A DNA stretch of 37,354 bases, from IMG/VR virus record IMGVR_UViG_3300036770_005606, positions 1-37,354 of that record. One strand, written 5' to 3'. The position numbers and the translations under genes were made by a program. This DNA is from a virus. Within the stretch, counting starts at the first letter, position 1. Each line of letters begins with the position of its first letter. Below are positions 5,851 to 34,375 of this stretch, one piece after another. The notes beneath the pieces were generated by a model. That model had not been told where the DNA came from. It ran no database searches and was given only the letters and a program-made list of their open reading frames with translations.

Positions 5851-6744
5851 TCATGTTTTCGATTTTAAAGTCCGCTCCATTTCAGCGCGTAGGCGCTGCG
5901 TTTCCAAAAAGTCAAGCTCCGATAGTACGTCACGCCAATTCAAGCGGGCCACATTTTCAACGGCCGTGATGTTGCCGGCCGCCGATCTGAACACCTCCCA
6001 CCAACCATAGTCGGCGCCGGACTGCTGGCCGCTGCCTCGCTCTTGGAATACTGCCGGAAACTGCCCGATGATGTGCAGCCTGCACGACAGTAACCAGAAC
6101 AAAATCACATTTTTCAGCATCGTCGGCAGCTTGGCTATTTGCTCCTGGCGGGCCGGTATGCTGGCCTCGTTCAGCGGCTGGCGGCGGTCGCCGTACCAGT
6201 TTTCCAGAAGGTTCTCCTCGGTGCCCGGCTTGGATGGCCGGTACATCGTGGCTATCAGCTTGTCAATCGTGGTAGTCTGCTTAGTTGTGGCATACTCCTC
6301 GAAGCCGTTAAACAGCAAAGCCAGCTCGTAAGCAGTTATATTTTCCAGCCCATTGGCCGGAGCGTAGAGATCCATCTTTGTGCCGATCTGAGAGGGCATA
6401 TTTTCAAGCACCGGGAAAGGGCACGCGGTAAGCGTCGGATTCAGCTCTATGGCAGGGCCTTCGCCAGTCGTATTTTCAAGGAACAGGAAGTCGAGCAGTG
6501 ACAGCAGGCTGAGCAAGTGTTCGGGATTTCCTATAAGTTCCTGAGCCAGCTTTTTGTCTTTGTCAGGCACCAGCAGGTGCAGCACTGCAAGACGAATGTC
6601 ACGCGCCGATGCAGGCTGCATCGTGAGCGTGACGGCGGCCATCAGCTTGGCAGCTCCGAACTGCTCAAGCAGCTCGTTCCAGCATGACGGCAGGCTGAAC
6701 TCAATGGCGCCATCCTCCACGCTTTCAATCCTGATCTTTGTCAT
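5851..6744 (-). CDS. Conserved phage protein of unknown function
   Basis: 297 aa, starting in a 4-bp ATGA overlap with the recombinase gene. The N-terminus (MTKIRIESVEDGAIEFSLPSCWNELLEQF) is strand then helix; the rest is mostly helical, with a hydrophobic helix around residues 208-228 (LKNVILFWLLSCRLHIIGQF) and a coiled, charged C-terminus. No catalytic motif is visible. Proteins of this style occur near tail genes in Bacteroidota prophages, and a tail-assembly or chaperone role is possible but only inferred. The tRNA-like gap follows. Confidence 0.82.
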   Translation of the reverse strand: MTKIRIESVEDGAIEFSLPSCWNELLEQFGAAKLMAAVTLTMQPASARDIRLAVLHLLVPDKDKKLAQELIGNPEHLLSLLSLLDFLFLENTTGEGPAIELNPTLTACPFPVLENMPSQIGTKMDLYAPANGLENITAYELALLFNGFEEYATTKQTTTIDKLIATMYRPSKPGTEENLLENWYGDRRQPLNEASIPARQEQIAKLPTMLKNVILFWLLSCRLHIIGQFPAVFQERGSGQQSGADYGWWEVFRSAAGNITAVENVARLNWRDVLSELDFLETQRLRAEMERTLKSKT

Positions 6745-7313
6745 GTTTTCACCCCCCTTGCGCGCAGGTAGCGATAGAGCGTAGCGGAGCTGATATTTAG
6801 CTGCTCGCAGATTTCGCGGGTGCTGAGCTTGTTCTCCTGGTACAAGCTGGCAGCGATGCGTGAAGTAGCCTCCGCCTTTTTGGTCAGGCCCTTTGGCCTG
6901 CCACCTGATTTGCCGCGGCTGCGAGCTGCCGATATGCCGGCCTTTGTGCGCTCCACTATCAGCGAGCGCTCGAACTCCGCCACCGCGCCAAATATTTGAA
7001 AGACCATTTTGCCGGCCGGGGTGCGGGTGTCGATGCCTTCTGAAATGGACCTGAAGTTGATGCCGCGCTGGTGAAACTCCTCAATCAGGCTTATGAGATG
7101 CTTCAGGCTGCGCCCCAGGCGATCCAGGCGCCATACTACCACAATGTCACCAGGCCTGACCACCTGCATGAGCTGTTCCAGCCCTGGACGGTCGGTCTTT
7201 GCGCCCGAGGCTGTGTCTTTGAATATCTGCTGGACGCCTGCTGATTTCAGGGCATCCATTTGCAGGTCAAAGACCTGGTCTGCTGTTGATATACGTGCGT
7301 AGCCTATGATCAT
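6741..7313 (-). CDS. Serine recombinase (resolvase/invertase family)
   Basis: 190 aa. Motifs: MIIGYARIST with catalytic Ser9, DxxSGAKTDRPGL, VVWRLDRLGRSL (active-site Arg residues), GKMVFQIFGAVAEFERSLIVERTKAG (helix E) and a C-terminal HTH (TREICEQLNISSATLYRYL, about 166-184). Length and order match Hin/Gin-type invertases and Tn3-type resolvases. It cuts and rejoins DNA at two short sites through a 5' phosphoserine link. It overlaps dut and the 297-aa gene by 4 bp each, so it is a settled operon member rather than a recent insertion. Its substrate sites are not identified here. Gene inversion or multimer resolution are the options. Confidence 0.93.
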   Translation of the reverse strand: MIIGYARISTADQVFDLQMDALKSAGVQQIFKDTASGAKTDRPGLEQLMQVVRPGDIVVVWRLDRLGRSLKHLISLIEEFHQRGINFRSISEGIDTRTPAGKMVFQIFGAVAEFERSLIVERTKAGISAARSRGKSGGRPKGLTKKAEATSRIAASLYQENKLSTREICEQLNISSATLYRYLRARGVKT

Positions 7314-7807
7314 CCTGCTTTGTGATGTGCTGGAACATTGTCAGCATTATGCTTCGAATCAGAGCTGCCAAAACCACGCTCGCCGCGCTCGCTGGCTTCC
7401 AGCTCGTCCACTTCCACCAGTTCGATGTCAGGCACCGGCATGATGATCAGCTGGGCAACTCGTTCGCCGTTGAAGTACCTTATCCCACGGTTCAGGGAGT
7501 GCTCGTTTGGTATGTACATTTTTACCATAATCTCACCTCTATACCCGCTGTCTATCACTCCGACTGAATTGGCCAACGTCATTCTGGTTTTAAAAATGCT
7601 GGACCTTGGCATAATGAAGCCGGCATATCCGACTGGAATTTCCACAGATATGCCGGTCTTATAAGTGACGCATACAGGGTATGAAGGAAAATCAGTCCCT
7701 GATTCAAAAGAAGTCTCTATGGCATAGAGATCAAAGCCTGCATCGTGCTCATAGGCTTTTGTCGGCAGGATGGCCTGTTCTGACAGACGTTTTACTTTTA
7801 CTTTCAT
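7310..7807 (-). CDS. dut: dUTPase (deoxyuridine 5'-triphosphate nucleotidohydrolase)
   Basis: 165 aa with all five motifs of the trimeric dUTPase family: HDAGFDLYA, PRSSIFKT, NSVGVIDSGYRGEI, GERVAQLIIMP and the C-terminal RGERGFGSS. It hydrolyses dUTP to dUMP and pyrophosphate, keeping uracil out of phage DNA and supplying dTMP precursor. The C-terminal tail after motif 5 is about 18 residues longer than usual (DSKHNADNVPAHHKAG). It overlaps the endolysin and recombinase genes by 4 bp, so all three are translationally coupled. Confidence 0.96.
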   Translation of the reverse strand: MKVKVKRLSEQAILPTKAYEHDAGFDLYAIETSFESGTDFPSYPVCVTYKTGISVEIPVGYAGFIMPRSSIFKTRMTLANSVGVIDSGYRGEIMVKMYIPNEHSLNRGIRYFNGERVAQLIIMPVPDIELVEVDELEASERGERGFGSSDSKHNADNVPAHHKAG

Positions 7808-8415
7808 ACTGCTTCTATTTTTTTGATGGCTTCCACGTGAGCCTGAATGACAGCATCTGCAAAAGTGCTGGTCACCATGATCTTTACTTCCTCCAGGTTG
7901 GAGTAGAAACCGTTTTCCGTTAATATCACCGCGGCACCTTTGGCGTGCTTGTGCAAAAAAAAGCTGGCTGATGACTTAATGCCTCTATCCCTGAAGCCTG
8001 TCTGCTTGACGATGTGCTGCTGGAACACCTGTGCCATCTCCACCTCAACTGCATTGGCGCCGGCTCTGTGCCATACCTCGATGCCTCGTGGAGCAGTCCA
8101 GGAGGCGCCATTGCCAAAGGCATTCGCATGAATCGACAGCAGGACCTTTTCCTGAACAGGCTCAGCTATTTGGTTGAACCTGTTCACTCGAAGCTGCAGC
8201 GAACTGGTCAGGTTCTCCTTCACGCTGTCGGCGATGATGGAGCAGCGAATGCCCAGAGCCAACAGCTGTTCGTGAATGCCCAGGGCGACAAGCCTGTTGA
8301 ATTCATATTCGAGGAACTGCCCTACGTAGGGATGTGGCAGCATGGGTGAACGCTTGCCGGCTTGCCTGGGACCGTGCCCCATGTCAATGGCCCAGTGGTA
8401 CTTTCCTTTGGTCAT
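7804..8415 (-). CDS. Endolysin: N-acetylmuramoyl-L-alanine amidase (Amidase_3 type)
   Basis: 203 aa. Zinc-amidase motifs: IDMGHG (His14), an acidic patch after the FLEYEFN segment, VLLSIHANA (second histidine, about residue 96) and ILTENGFYSN (catalytic Glu). It cleaves the amide bond between MurNAc and L-Ala in peptidoglycan to release progeny. There is no signal peptide, so a holin or another exporter would be needed; the short upstream gene is one candidate. Its start overlaps that gene by 32 bp and its stop overlaps dut by 4 bp. Confidence 0.93.
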   Translation of the reverse strand: MTKGKYHWAIDMGHGPRQAGKRSPMLPHPYVGQFLEYEFNRLVALGIHEQLLALGIRCSIIADSVKENLTSSLQLRVNRFNQIAEPVQEKVLLSIHANAFGNGASWTAPRGIEVWHRAGANAVEVEMAQVFQQHIVKQTGFRDRGIKSSASFFLHKHAKGAAVILTENGFYSNLEEVKIMVTSTFADAVIQAHVEAIKKIEAV

Positions 8416-27817: not shown

Positions 27818-28062
27818 GCGGCGTCTGATTTTCTAACCCACTGGGCAGCCTCTGGCATGCCGAACTTGTCAAAAAATGCAGCCGACATAACAGGGCTGAT
27901 ACGTTTCAGCATAAGACCGACGGCGTAGATCACTGCGCCGCGGACAACAGGCGACTGCACGGCTGCCGTTTCCATCATTGCGCTCAAATCCTGGTGGTGG
28001 CCGTCCGTGATGATGCGGACGTTGTCCTCGTCGTCGAGGAGAATGGTGATGATTGCTTTCAT
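27814..28062 (-). CDS. Hypothetical small protein, second of a coupled trio
   Basis: 82 aa (MKAIITILLDDEDNVRIITDGHHQDLSAMMETAAVQSPVVRGAVIYAVGLMLKRISPVMSAAFFDKFGMPEAAQWVRK...): a β-start with an acidic turn, then helices with moderate hydrophobicity. It has 4-bp ATGA overlaps at both ends with its neighbours. Function unknown. Confidence 0.78.
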   Translation of the reverse strand: MKAIITILLDDEDNVRIITDGHHQDLSAMMETAAVQSPVVRGAVIYAVGLMLKRISPVMSAAFFDKFGMPEAAQWVRKSDAA

Positions 28063-28349
28063 AATAACTTCATTTTAAGTTGTTGGTAATTAGCCTCTGC
28101 CCTCACGGCAGCGGCCCGGATGTCGCTTTTATGGTCGAGCCATTCAATCAGCTCAGCCCTTGTTACGCCGGTCTCCTCCATCTTCAGCAGGATGATTTCG
28201 GCATTGACCAGTACCTCGTGCTGGTTGACTGCTACCTGGTAGCTGATCTGCTTATCGTTGTATTTCTGGCGCAGGTGCTTGTGCAGCGCCGCGGATGCCA
28301 CTTTGAAGGCATTTCGGATGTCATCTTGAGTAATTAAGGTTTTTACCAT
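28059..28349 (-). CDS. Hypothetical helical protein, first of a coupled trio beside the repeat field
   Basis: 96 aa (MVKTLITQDDIRNAFKVASAALHKHLRQKYNDKQISYQVAVNQHEVLVNAEIILLKMEETGVTRAELIEWLDHKSDIRAAAVRAE...): all-helical, with a helix-turn-helix-like EETGVTRAELIEWLDHKSD segment that might bind DNA. It starts about 44 bp beyond the TGTTCAA repeats, so it is a natural candidate to act on them, but this is only positional. The start context ATTAAAATCTGTGAC-ATG recurs at 27489 and partly at 28610. Confidence 0.78.
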   Translation of the reverse strand: MVKTLITQDDIRNAFKVASAALHKHLRQKYNDKQISYQVAVNQHEVLVNAEIILLKMEETGVTRAELIEWLDHKSDIRAAAVRAEANYQQLKMKLL

Positions 28350-28392
28350 GTCACAGATTTTAATTTTTGCTTATTTAGAATTTGTCTAAAAC

Positions 28393-28742
28393 TGTTCAAA
28401 TTGAACACCTTTTGAACACCTTTTGAACAGCCAGAACTTAACACTGGCGCGGGTGTTCAGCTTTTGAACAGTTTGAACACTTTGAACACCTGAACACTTT
28501 GAACACCTTTTTTTTGCTTTTTTTCGGCCATTTTTTGCTGTTCAAACTGTGCAAAGTGTTCAAACTGTTCAAAGTGTTCAATTTGAACAGTCTTTGAACA
28601 TGTCACAGATTTTTGATTTTTTGAAGAGCTTCCAGCCTTTTTTCCTTTCTAAAAAAAATATAGTATCTATTTTTTTTAGAAGGGGAAAAGGTGTGCAAAC
28701 TGTTCAAAGTGTTCAAACTGTTCAAAGTGTTCAAATTGAACA
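28393..28742. repeat. TGTTCAA iteron-like repeat field, probable replication origin region
   Basis: Nineteen exact TGTTCAA/TTGAACA heptamers plus at least four one-base variants lie in four modules. Modules C (28539-28589) and D (28692-28742) each have five rightward units spaced 9 bp apart, capped by one inverted unit. Module B (28454-28505) is the same design reversed. Module A (28393-28429) has three leftward units 11 bp apart plus a cap. A and B face left, C and D face right, around a T-rich centre (28506-28538). The field lies between the helicase gene and a trio of small genes and has no credible gene. Iterons of 9 or 11 bp beside a helicase gene suggest an origin or a regulator array. 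Confidence 0.85.
28643..28685. repeat. AT-rich perfect inverted repeat within the repeat field
   Basis: TTCTAAAAAAAATA (28647-28660) and its exact reverse complement TATTTTTTTTAGAA (28668-28681) are separated by 7 bases. Pairing extends imperfectly outwards through CC/GG. It lies between repeat modules C and D. A cruciform or DNA-unwinding element at an origin is plausible; it lacks the GC stem of a terminator. Confidence 0.7.
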
Positions 28743-28756: not shown

Positions 28757-28788
28757 AAAAAAAAGGCTGCACATCGTGTTGTGCAGCC
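28757..28788 (-). terminator. Intrinsic terminator after the helicase gene
   Basis: Minus strand: GGCTGCACA, 6-base loop, TGTGCAGCC (9 bp), then eight T. It lies 16 bases after the helicase stop. Confidence 0.95.
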
Positions 28789-28803
28789 TCTCATATCACT
28801 AAA

Positions 28804-30528
28804 CTAAAATGGAACAGTATCAGAAGGATTGTTCGCGGCCGGCGGAGCAGCCTCCGCACTACCCTCTTTGTTATGGCCGGTGAAAACAAAGTTGCCGTTC
28901 GGGTCCAGCTCGTACATCTGCGAGCCTTGCACGTACATCTTGCAGCGCATGATCAGTGTGTTGACTGCGTGCGGATAGCCAATCTCCTGGTGTATCTTTC
29001 GCCAGCCCTTGGTCCAGTCCTTCGCCTTCAGCTCCACCGCCTTCTTAATGTATTCCTCCTGGTCGCCAGCCTCCATAAATGACTTCAAACACTCGTCCTC
29101 GTGTGCCAGCCCGATGAACTCCCAGCTGAGCATATTGTCAATTTTGGAAGTGCGATAGCGAATCACATTCGAAGCTCCAAACACCTTTTCAGAGTTGCGG
29201 GCCTTCAGCTGCTTCAGGTAATAGGTGCCCTCCTCGTTCGCATTTTCGTTGATGCCAAAAATAGTAGGAGCAAAGTCCTGGAAAGCAGAGGCCCCCTTCA
29301 TGGCCGAGAGGGTCAACTGCTCCATTTTGTTTTGGTGTTTCGTTGTGTGGGCAAGCACCAGGATGGTGAGGTTGTAACGAATGCGCAGCCTTTTGAGAAA
29401 GCGCATTATTTTGATCGCGATGTTGATGTCGGAAGCTGACTCGGAGGAAAGGGCTGTGATGTTGTCCACTATAAGCACCTGGGGCATTCGCTGCCGGACC
29501 AGTGTTTCAATTTGCCGGTTGATGTACTTGTCCATGTCTTCCTCTGGGTAGTCCAGAAAGTTCGGGTTTGGGTCCACCCTGTAAAAGTTTGGCGAGAATT
29601 GATACCTGGTTCCCCCTTCCGTGTAGCGCTTCTCCACCTCGCGGTCGAACAGCTCCATGTCGATGAACAGCACCGACAGCTCCTCTGGCTGTTGCTTGAC
29701 TTCGTTGCCCAGTTCGTTCACCAGGATGCCTGGCAGGAAGGATCTGCCAGAAGCGATGGCATTGCCCAGCTGCACCGCGCCGATGGACTTGGCGGAGCCT
29801 GGAGGGCCAAACAGAATGGTGATGCTGTTCTGGTGAAGCAGCTCCCCTGCCAGCCTGAACATCTCAGGCTCCCGGCCGGCGTCCTCGATCACCTGGTTCC
29901 AGGAGCGCACACGAAAAAAGGCGGAAGGGCTGCTCACCAGCAGCTCTTCCGCCATCGTGTTCCTTTCTTCGAAAATGTCGCCCTCCTCTGCATGTGCCCT
30001 CGCAAGTCCCTGATAAAGCTTGCGTATGTAGTCGCGACTAAGGTATTTCTGATACAATATTCGGGCGTGATATTCAAGATTTGCGGTTGACGCAACTATT
30101 TTGGTCAATTCAACTAAATAGAAAGCTCCGCCTATGGCCTCTAGGGCATTAGCAAATCCTTCAGTTTTGTCGATCGTTGAAAAATGCACGTTAAGCTCAC
30201 CAGACATTCGCCACTTCTTCATATTCTTCAAAAAGTCGGTGACTGTAAGCAGGTCGATTGGCAGTTCGCGTTCGTATAGTTGGGAGCAGGCCTCCCAGAT
30301 AATAGCATGTTTGTCGTCGTAGAAATGTGAAGGAAGGAGGAAGTTCACCCTGGGGAAAGCCTCGCGTTCAAGCAGGCAGGCCCCGATAACTGCTTTTTCA
30401 AGCTCAATGTTGTGTGGCTGTGGTGCTCCGAAAACGAGGTTTTCAAGGCCTTTGATGAATTCGTTCTGATCGGCCTGGTTCTTCTTGTAGGCCGCTTTGA
30501 GTTTTGTTGCGGTGTTATTTGTTGACAT
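28804..30528 (-). CDS. Replicative DNA helicase, DnaB-type N-domain with RecA-like ATPase
   Basis: 574 aa from ATG 30528 (MSTNNTATKLKAAYKKN). The longer ORF from 30630 has an unlikely Cys/His/aromatic leader and crosses the GTCCTT motif. Residues ~38-175 match the DnaB N-terminal domain (PHNIELEKAVIGACLLEREAF, HFYDDKHAIIWEACSQLYERELPIDLLTVTDFL, GGAFYLVELT). The RecA-like core has Walker A GPPGSAKS (241-248) and Walker B VLIVD (351-355), followed by ILVLAHTTK (sensor-like). The C-terminal ~60 residues look like a small extra domain ending in an acidic, Pro-rich tail. It would unwind DNA as a hexamer. No primase, polymerase or initiator gene is seen, so host factors must supply these. Confidence 0.92.
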   Translation of the reverse strand: MSTNNTATKLKAAYKKNQADQNEFIKGLENLVFGAPQPHNIELEKAVIGACLLEREAFPRVNFLLPSHFYDDKHAIIWEACSQLYERELPIDLLTVTDFLKNMKKWRMSGELNVHFSTIDKTEGFANALEAIGGAFYLVELTKIVASTANLEYHARILYQKYLSRDYIRKLYQGLARAHAEEGDIFEERNTMAEELLVSSPSAFFRVRSWNQVIEDAGREPEMFRLAGELLHQNSITILFGPPGSAKSIGAVQLGNAIASGRSFLPGILVNELGNEVKQQPEELSVLFIDMELFDREVEKRYTEGGTRYQFSPNFYRVDPNPNFLDYPEEDMDKYINRQIETLVRQRMPQVLIVDNITALSSESASDINIAIKIMRFLKRLRIRYNLTILVLAHTTKHQNKMEQLTLSAMKGASAFQDFAPTIFGINENANEEGTYYLKQLKARNSEKVFGASNVIRYRTSKIDNMLSWEFIGLAHEDECLKSFMEAGDQEEYIKKAVELKAKDWTKGWRKIHQEIGYPHAVNTLIMRCKMYVQGSQMYELDPNGNFVFTGHNKEGSAEAAPPAANNPSDTVPF

Positions 30529-30546
30529 TTCAAAAAAGTTAATGCG

Positions 30547-30581
30547 CGAATTTCTCCGAAAGCAGTCTGAAAAGTAAGGAC
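30547..30581 (-). promoter_or_regulatory. Promoter-like motif copy 9 (GTCCTTACTTT, N16, weak GAAATTCG)
   Basis: Minus strand GTCCTTACTTT is identical to copy 7; 16 bases later GAAATTCG is a poor -7 box. It lies 19 bases upstream of the helicase ATG. Confidence 0.4.
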
Positions 30582-30719
30582 AGCCACCGGCGAAATGCGA
30601 GCAGGTGTGTGTGTAGTAAGGCACGGCCAAGCCTGTTTGAATGCAGGCATTGTGTGCTTATTTCTGCTAAGTATGTGTAGTGTATTTGCTCGTCCTGAGC
30701 CTGGAAGTTTTCTAAAAGT

Positions 30720-33289: not shown

Positions 33290-34375
33290 ATGGCAAAAGC
33301 AAAAAAAAATTTGTACCTCTACGACGCCCAAAACGACCTGAACAAAAAATGGTTCGTTGCCTACTACGACGAGTACGGAAAAAGGCAGCGAGTGTACGGA
33401 GACATCAACAAGCACACAACACAGCAGGATAGGAGAGAGGCAGCCGCCCTGCTGATGCTCGAAATCCAAAGCAATCTACTCCCCCCACCACAACTACCCA
33501 ACCACGAACAAAGAGAGCAGCTATACTCCGCCCTGGAAGCCTACTCCAAGAAAGTCCGCCGAACTACCTATGTTGCCTACCGTTGGAAACTGAACGACTT
33601 GTTCGAGTACCTGGACGGAAGGCCAATCACCAAGAAATCACTTCAGGAATACTTCGAAAATGCAACTAACAAGCACAGCGTAACCACTGTGCACAACACT
33701 CGCATGATGATGAAGAGAGTGCTGGGACTTGCAAAGTTGGATCACCTGCTGGAGGATATTCACGTGAGAAAGGGACAGAAGCAACCGCTTCGCTACTTCC
33801 AGCCGCACCAGGTGAAACAAATAGTTGAGTATCTCGAGGTGCGTGACCCGAGGCTGCTGCTATGGGCGAAGTTCGTGTACTACTGCTTTCTGAGACCGCG
33901 CTCTGAGCTTCGATTTTTGCGGGTTTCAGACATCTACTTCGAGGAAAAAAAGATACTTGTGAGAGGAGAGTTTTTCAAACACGAGCCTGGCAGCCCCTTG
34001 CCTCCTGGAGCGAAGAATGGCAAGTCGCAATACGTAAGGATCCCGGATGCTTTTATGCCGGATCTCGAACACCTGAAGAGCCTGCCACCTGATTCCTGGG
34101 TTTTTGCCAACACCAAAGGCAAAGTGTTTGGCAAGAATCAACTTGGTGAAAAATTCCGCGCCGTATTGGACCACCTTGGCTATGGCCCGGAGTACCAGGT
34201 CTATTCCTTCAAACACACTGGCGCCGTGGCCTGCGTAAAGGCGGGTATCGGCCTGAAGGAGCTGCAGCTGCAACTCAGGCATCACTCGCTCGACCAGGTG
34301 AACGAATATCTGAGACAGCTGGGGGTGATGGATTTCGAGAATATTGGCAAAAACTTCCCAAAAATGGGGGCATAA
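33290..34375 (+). CDS. int: Tyrosine-recombinase integrase
   Basis: 361 aa. Residues ~1-65 are an arm-binding-like domain (NLYLYDAQNDLNKKWFVAYYDEYGKRQRVYGDIN), ~70-160 a SAM-like core-binding domain and ~165-350 the catalytic domain. Catalytic residues are Arg202 in CFLRPRSEL, His309 in SFKHTGA, Arg330/His332-333 in LRHHSLDQV and Tyr340 in NEYLRQLG. The usual second arginine (HxLR) position is occupied by Lys308, as I recall for many Bacteroidota phage integrases. It would integrate and, with an excisionase, excise the phage. Confidence 0.94.
   Translation: MAKAKKNLYLYDAQNDLNKKWFVAYYDEYGKRQRVYGDINKHTTQQDRREAAALLMLEIQSNLLPPPQLPNHEQREQLYSALEAYSKKVRRTTYVAYRWKLNDLFEYLDGRPITKKSLQEYFENATNKHSVTTVHNTRMMMKRVLGLAKLDHLLEDIHVRKGQKQPLRYFQPHQVKQIVEYLEVRDPRLLLWAKFVYYCFLRPRSELRFLRVSDIYFEEKKILVRGEFFKHEPGSPLPPGAKNGKSQYVRIPDAFMPDLEHLKSLPPDSWVFANTKGKVFGKNQLGEKFRAVLDHLGYGPEYQVYSFKHTGAVACVKAGIGLKELQLQLRHHSLDQVNEYLRQLGVMDFENIGKNFPKMGA

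Follow-up and report, generated by a model that had tools for sequence, protein, structure and literature searches.

Ring-shaped helicases of the DnaB type are normally brought to an origin of replication by initiators and loaders that are separate proteins. In phage P4, a single protein, alpha (a primase fused to an SF3-type helicase), unwinds DNA and also binds the origin iterons (type I), which are TGTTCACC-like, through its C-terminus. In the RepA/RepB'/RepC system of RSF1010, the iterons are bound by RepC, a separate protein. In classical iteron plasmids, direct repeats near an AT-rich region recruit an initiator and then a helicase (review PMC4980987). An eLife 2020 paper (PMC7581432, citing Ubeda et al. 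2007) describes iterons directly downstream of the helicase gene that are recognized by the C-terminal domain of the protein, SaPI Rep or SCCmec Cch2.

We describe here a phage locus in which a helicase gene of the DnaB/RepA type is followed by a field of TGTTCAA iterons. Judging from sequence comparisons and structure prediction, the field is probably the replication origin of the phage and the adjacent helicase its own initiator. SaPI Rep and Cch2 would be the nearest functional analogues. In that paper (PMC7581432), the SaPI rep-ori and SCCmec Cch2 with its putative origin also pair a mobile-element helicase-initiator with short iterons right after its own gene, often with a primase alongside. 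The likeness appears to be one of logic and not of membership, as the helicase families are unrelated: SaPI Rep, Cch, and Cch2 are D5-type/Primase_Cterm or DUF927 helicases, whereas the present protein is a DnaB/RepA-type RecA-fold helicase (SF4) with a small predicted HTH tail and a Bacteroidota setting. The likeness to P4 alpha is functional as well; the latter is a primase fusion of SF3 type and the present helicase belongs to SF4, while the P4 iteron resembles the TGTTCAC class described below. RSF1010 shares an SF4 RepA-type helicase and an iteron origin, but the HTH of the present system seems to belong to the helicase itself. Similarly, classical iteron plasmids have a separate Rep initiator (Rep_3, RepA_N, and the like), whereas here a single protein appears to serve as both helicase and initiator. 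In lambda O-type origins the iterons lie inside the initiator gene, upstream of the helicase/loader, whereas the present ones are intergenic and past the helicase stop.

The iteron field and its setting

The window (the whole 37.4-kb stretch of DNA that was analysed) is the virus record of a temperate siphophage-like virus. A tyrosine integrase gene lies at 33290-34375, and a head maturation protease and a tail tape-measure protein are among the genes. At 6741-8415, genes for a serine resolvase, a dUTPase, and an amidase are crowded in with structural genes. The helicase ORF has 608 codons; the gene that follows it on that strand, at 28059-28349, encodes a 96-aa protein. The gap of 450 bp between the helicase stop and this gene is occupied by a terminator hairpin and then by the iteron field, which is intergenic and starts 62 bp past the stop. 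The features are as follows.

28393-28429, no strand: module A; TGTTCAA (plus), one base, then three inverted units at an 11-bp step
28454-28505, no strand: module B; variant TGTTCAG (plus), then five minus-strand units (one a variant) at steps of 9/9/8/9 bp
28506-28538, no strand: T-rich centre, 67% AT, separating left- from right-pointing modules; possible unwinding element
28539-28600, no strand: module C; five plus-strand units (one TGTGCAA) at a 9-bp step, one-base closure to an inverted unit, then another inverted unit
28593-28620, minus: 82% match to 28341-28368, where the 96-aa gene has its leader and start codon; trace of segmental duplication, adjoining module C
28636-28692, no strand: AT-rich near-perfect palindrome between modules C and D, with 8 A / 8 T arms
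28692-28742, no strand: module D; five plus-strand units (the first TGTGCAA) at a 9-bp step, one-base closure to an inverted unit
28761-28792, minus: intrinsic-terminator-like hairpin ending the helicase transcript, between stop and field
28804-30630, minus: helicase, proposed initiator; DnaB_N at aa 71-193, AAA_25/RecA-like core at aa 250-433, predicted C-terminal winged HTH
28882-29070, minus: predicted C-terminal winged HTH, proposed iteron reader; aa 521-583, moderate pLDDT, HTH families in relatives
30052-30420, minus: DnaB N-terminal domain of the helicase, aa 71-193

Counted on both strands, TGTTCAA occurs in 19 exact copies within the 350 bp of 28393-28742 and in 27 copies in the whole window. 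The eight copies outside the field are at the chance level, as 100 shuffles gave a mean of 8.15 and a maximum of 17. The 19 heptamers reported in an earlier note on this DNA are thus confirmed by the count. The 'about four variants' of that note correspond to one-mismatch units near 28454, 28490, 28548, and 28692, besides isolated ones; the leftward orientation of modules A and B, the rightward orientation of C and D, and the T-rich stretch between them were also found as described. The proposed spacing held in the main: the steps are 11 bp in A and 9 bp in B, C, and D, apart from one 8-bp step within B. The one-base closure proposed for every module (TGTTCAA-W-TTGAACA) holds exactly in A, C, and D, but not in B, where the closing unit is the variant TGTTCAG at three-base spacing. 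Module C has an extra inverted unit at 28594, making two inverted units.

The mirror symmetry that had been proposed for the entire field is not what relatives conserve; the conserved design is that of convergent arms inside each cluster. In the helicase orientation, every module is such a convergent cluster, with forward units followed by reverse units (F1R5, F2R5, F5R1, and F3R1). The two clusters nearest the helicase are separated by the strong AT-rich palindrome, and an A/T-rich centre lies in the field. The palindrome (dG of -14.3 kcal/mol as ssDNA, z of -4.7) had been missed at first reading, as had the terminator-like hairpin and the duplicated leader of the 96-aa gene (an 82% direct repeat) inside the field. 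It is a candidate that could be an unwinding element, a stem-loop, or a terminator. The leader copy suggests that the field may have expanded via segmental duplication. GC skew, which had been suggested as a check, showed no origin signal in the window.

The helicase and its relatives

The helicase is of the DnaB/RepA type (SF4), with Pfam matches to DnaB_N and AAA_25 and with DnaB as the best Foldseek matches. The probable translation start is an internal ATG near 30528. In the AlphaFold2 model, three C-terminal helices (521-537, 543-550, and 554-567) are followed by a beta hairpin (573-583); the layout appears to be that of a winged HTH, at moderate model confidence (pLDDT about 55-75). Unlike some of its relatives, the window helicase has no Pfam HTH match. 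A fold search with its C-terminal domain gave no significant PDB match, and many of the weak ones were winged-HTH regulators (MntR, CggR, DtxR, Lrp-type).

When viral contigs were searched with the window helicase as a single protein, no close relative was obtained. Two loci found through the repeat itself, L011 (viral) and L040 (a Bacteroidia MAG), encode a related helicase, and an alignment of these with the window protein uncovered a large helicase family. It includes 27 viral loci and plasmids of Bacteroides and Butyricimonas, and matches in Bacteroidota genome sets numbered 24/395, 14/395, 75/390 (one order), and 25/384. About 90 related mobile elements (phages, IMEs, and plasmids) made up the comparison set. 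The window helicase is at best ~33% identical to any relative. These Bacteroidota-like relatives are the sole taxonomic pointer to the host, and it is on this footing that the virus would be titled a Bacteroidota phage.

Pfam scanning of 15 members showed the AAA_25 core in all and HTH_23 in nine (best E 1.1e-6). DnaB_N was present besides AAA_25 only in the window and in L055, its nearest relative, a locus of 11.3 kb. A search with the alignment of these two returned L055 itself and otherwise mostly weak DnaB_N-domain matches. The DnaB_N of the window shares 41-47% identity with N-domains of DnaB-like proteins from Bacteroidota genomes; its fusion to a RepA-type core could possibly reflect capture of the domain from a host. 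We define the HTH-tailed AAA_25 helicase family by three features: a homologous RecA core, an HTH at the C-terminus, and convergent iterons located at the 3' end of the helicase gene. The window has the core and the iterons together with a predicted HTH, the latter being the least certain.

In the relatives, arrays lie at or just past the helicase stop, and typically consist of three units in direct and three in inverted orientation, with steps of 9-10 bp; the four-module field of the window is more elaborate than these usual 3+3 arms. Downstream arrays, called by an automatic rule blind to the protein (the unit call assumes a GT start), were present at 59 of 102 loci; control stretches taken within these loci gave 5 of 102 (Fisher p=3e-17), and one of the five is the true array of L040, which is about 2 kb from its helicase. 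Hence, relatives of the helicase hold iterons, usually in convergent arms, at the position equivalent to that in the window, and this supports the earlier suggestion of a replication origin. After the helicase stop, the median start of the array is +2 bp and its end 82 bp; in some elements the array is within the 3' end of the helicase ORF, and in a few it is upstream. The rule found no array near the gene in about a third of the HTH-tailed relatives. Relatives from large phages (100-413 kb) are missing both the HTH tail and downstream arrays. Among tail-less relatives, 0/4 had a downstream array after removal of near-identical ones (Fisher p=0.05, a weak contrast).

The unit is TGTTCAA in L011, L040, and L065; TGTTCAC in L057, L060, L095, and L099; TGTAACA in L056, L063, L094, L104, and L127; TGTCCCA in L053, L074, and L110; TGTGCCA in L124 and L126; TTCGTAC or TGCGTAC in L096, L101, and L130; TGTTTCA in L055; and TGTTCCA in L125. 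The TGTTCAA array was also tried as a marker of the family and rejected: the motif alone is not diagnostic, and most matches in the collection were coding repeats or unrelated arrays. It may be noted that tandem TGTTCAA arrays also occur in unrelated contexts (L014, L017, L027, and L048). Those at L014 5283-5420 and L017 2650-2795, from Magnetococcales, are two-armed TGTTCAAG arrays with divergent arms, away from this helicase family. In L011, TGTTCAA arrays at 1819-1916 and 2241-2367 flank the start of a primase-like gene, one of them being within its 5' coding region.

In about half of the helicase loci checked, the iterons adjoin a DUF6371 gene, whose product has a zinc ribbon at its N-terminus and may be a primase-like protein; among the open papers searched, DUF6371 was mentioned in one on an unrelated subject. 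Tn4555-like cfxA elements of Bacteroides (CP103278, NZ_CP032820) carry a related helicase with a C-terminal HTH, TGTCCCA iterons that lie within or behind its 3' end, and then a DUF6371 gene. They differ from the window in being mobilizable elements and not phages, in a helicase without DnaB_N, and in the TGTCCCA unit. In L082 (3980-6196, CP103278) and L083, both cfxA-bearing and Tn4555-like, the helicase-iteron-DUF6371 module is annotated merely as 'AAA family ATPase' and DUF6371. Neither the window nor the 11.3-kb L055 locus contains a DUF6371 gene; many genome loci were read with a 1.5-kb flank, where absence of DUF6371 is uninformative. DnaB_N of bacterial DnaB contacts DnaG. From these two members, the window and L055, we infer that an own priming gene may have been traded for the host DnaG: a primase gene would be missing by the origin in both because DnaB_N would recruit that enzyme.

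Covariation of the recognition helix and the iteron unit

Recognition-helix similarity was compared with unit identity by a partial Mantel test, with helicase-core relatedness partialled out. The partial r was 0.39 (p=2e-4) for a blind set of 30 and 0.38 (p=1e-4) for an enlarged blind set of 50; blindness had one exception, the pooling of GTGAA with GTTCA (two strands of GTTCAC). A hand-curated set of 42, labelled by someone who could see the proteins, gave r=0.45 (p=2e-4). When about 335 ten-residue stretches of the helicase were scanned, the recognition helix ranked best, and stretches of the core averaged 0, with a maximum of about 0.15-0.18. A second peak, at about position 334 and just ahead of the HTH, may represent helix 1 of that domain.

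For new loci with helix identity of at least 70%, the unit was correct in 10 of 15 cases when taken from the helix versus 3 of 15 when taken from the nearest whole core. With downstream arrays only, the same out-of-sample test gave 9 of 11 by helix and 3 of 11 by core. In the misses with SHQKADR-like helices (L184, L191, and L194), GTCCG-type sites are present and were outscored by another nearby repeat, which is an after-the-fact reading. Moreover, a natural swap was found between L196 and four loci (L065, L183, L188, and L190) whose cores are 81-83% identical to that of L196. Six homologous aligned sites are TTGAACA-type in the four and TGGAACA-type in L196, having changed together, and the accompanying change in the helix is SVGSVNR to GVGSVNR. 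L190 is mixed at two of the six sites. These comparisons suggest that the helicase reads the iterons with its DNA-binding tail, and that each element would comprise a matched helicase and origin.

The recognition helix of the window is GYPHAVNTLIMR, of which A-V-N also occurs in TGTTCAC-type members. An attempt to predict the unit of the window from its HTH by the family code failed; the nearest class was TGTAACA, and the TGTTCA class scored lower. The HTH of the window is too divergent for the family code to give TGTTCAA. Since the code alone does not predict the unit, the case for the window is built on place and architecture together with the family rule, which its divergent HTH would be expected to obey.

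The proposed origin and its alternatives

According to our proposal, copies of the helicase would bind the TGTTCAA iterons via the C-terminal winged HTH, and the convergent arms would gather enough helicase for ring assembly beside the T-rich centre and the AT-rich palindrome. The DNA would open there, two rings would load, and replication would proceed outward. The DnaB-type N-terminal domain would then recruit the host primase (DnaG).

The field could also be an origin at which some other protein, either a small one of the phage or one of the host, binds the iterons and then loads the helicase. The divergent HTH of the window, with the failure of the family code to predict TGTTCAA, fits such an arrangement, as do the several unannotated small proteins adjoining the field; the earlier note had favoured the 96-, 82- or 83-aa protein as the binder. 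However, these proteins have no homologue at any iteron-bearing locus, and the covariation across the family maps to the helicase HTH. A small protein as the iteron binder is probably wrong, and the window ORFs scanned, which include all neighbours of the field, gave no Pfam match to a Rep-type initiator. On balance, we consider loading by another protein unlikely.

Alternatively, an array of operators might be expected where the field is placed, between a terminator and the next operon, and its one-base palindromes are operator-like. Such operators could serve, for example, the downstream operon led by the 96-aa gene, possibly with autoregulation by the helicase HTH. This is quite improbable, as the repressor/integrase region of the window has no TGTTCAA-type sites, and the arrays of relatives follow the helicase whichever gene comes next, often within its 3' coding end. 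The field region also has no sigma-70-like promoter, a type from which Bacteroidota promoters differ. The omega protein of pSM19035, an RHH protein, has a centromere of direct and inverted heptads, which those of the field resemble. Yet the window ORFs scanned gave no partition-protein Pfam match and the arrays accompany the helicase, integrated elements included, which makes a partition centromere for a ParB-like or ribbon-helix-helix protein very unlikely. A neutral or selfish tandem repeat without a replication role would agree with the TGTTCAA arrays in unrelated contexts, but is hardly to be expected, given the conserved helicase-linked place, the two-armed design, and the covariation with the HTH.

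Beyond the single phage, it seems likely that the origin with its own helicase-initiator represents a widespread, apparently undescribed class of replicon in Bacteroidota mobile elements. In this class, a DnaB/RepA-type helicase would recognize its own origin, the helix-heptamer code would be readable, and the presence of DnaB_N or of the DUF6371 gene would set the mode of priming. Among the open papers searched (subscription journals being outside the search), there was no earlier description of such a class, and no paper combining iterons, Bacteroides, helicase, and primase. If the proposal is true, a helicase with its own origin-reading tail beside its own origin would make a compact, self-contained replicon, and the strategy of SaPI and Cch2 would have been invented independently a second time. 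With the recognition code, protein sequence could then point to the origins of many Bacteroidota phages and mobilizable elements that lack annotation, and origin specificity and incompatibility could be tested directly in a phylum for which few replicons are known. In L127, a second iteron type (CGTTTCA/TGAAACG) is present right behind the TGTAACA arms, ~100-170 bp past the helicase stop, and the locus looks as if two origin specificities were placed side by side.
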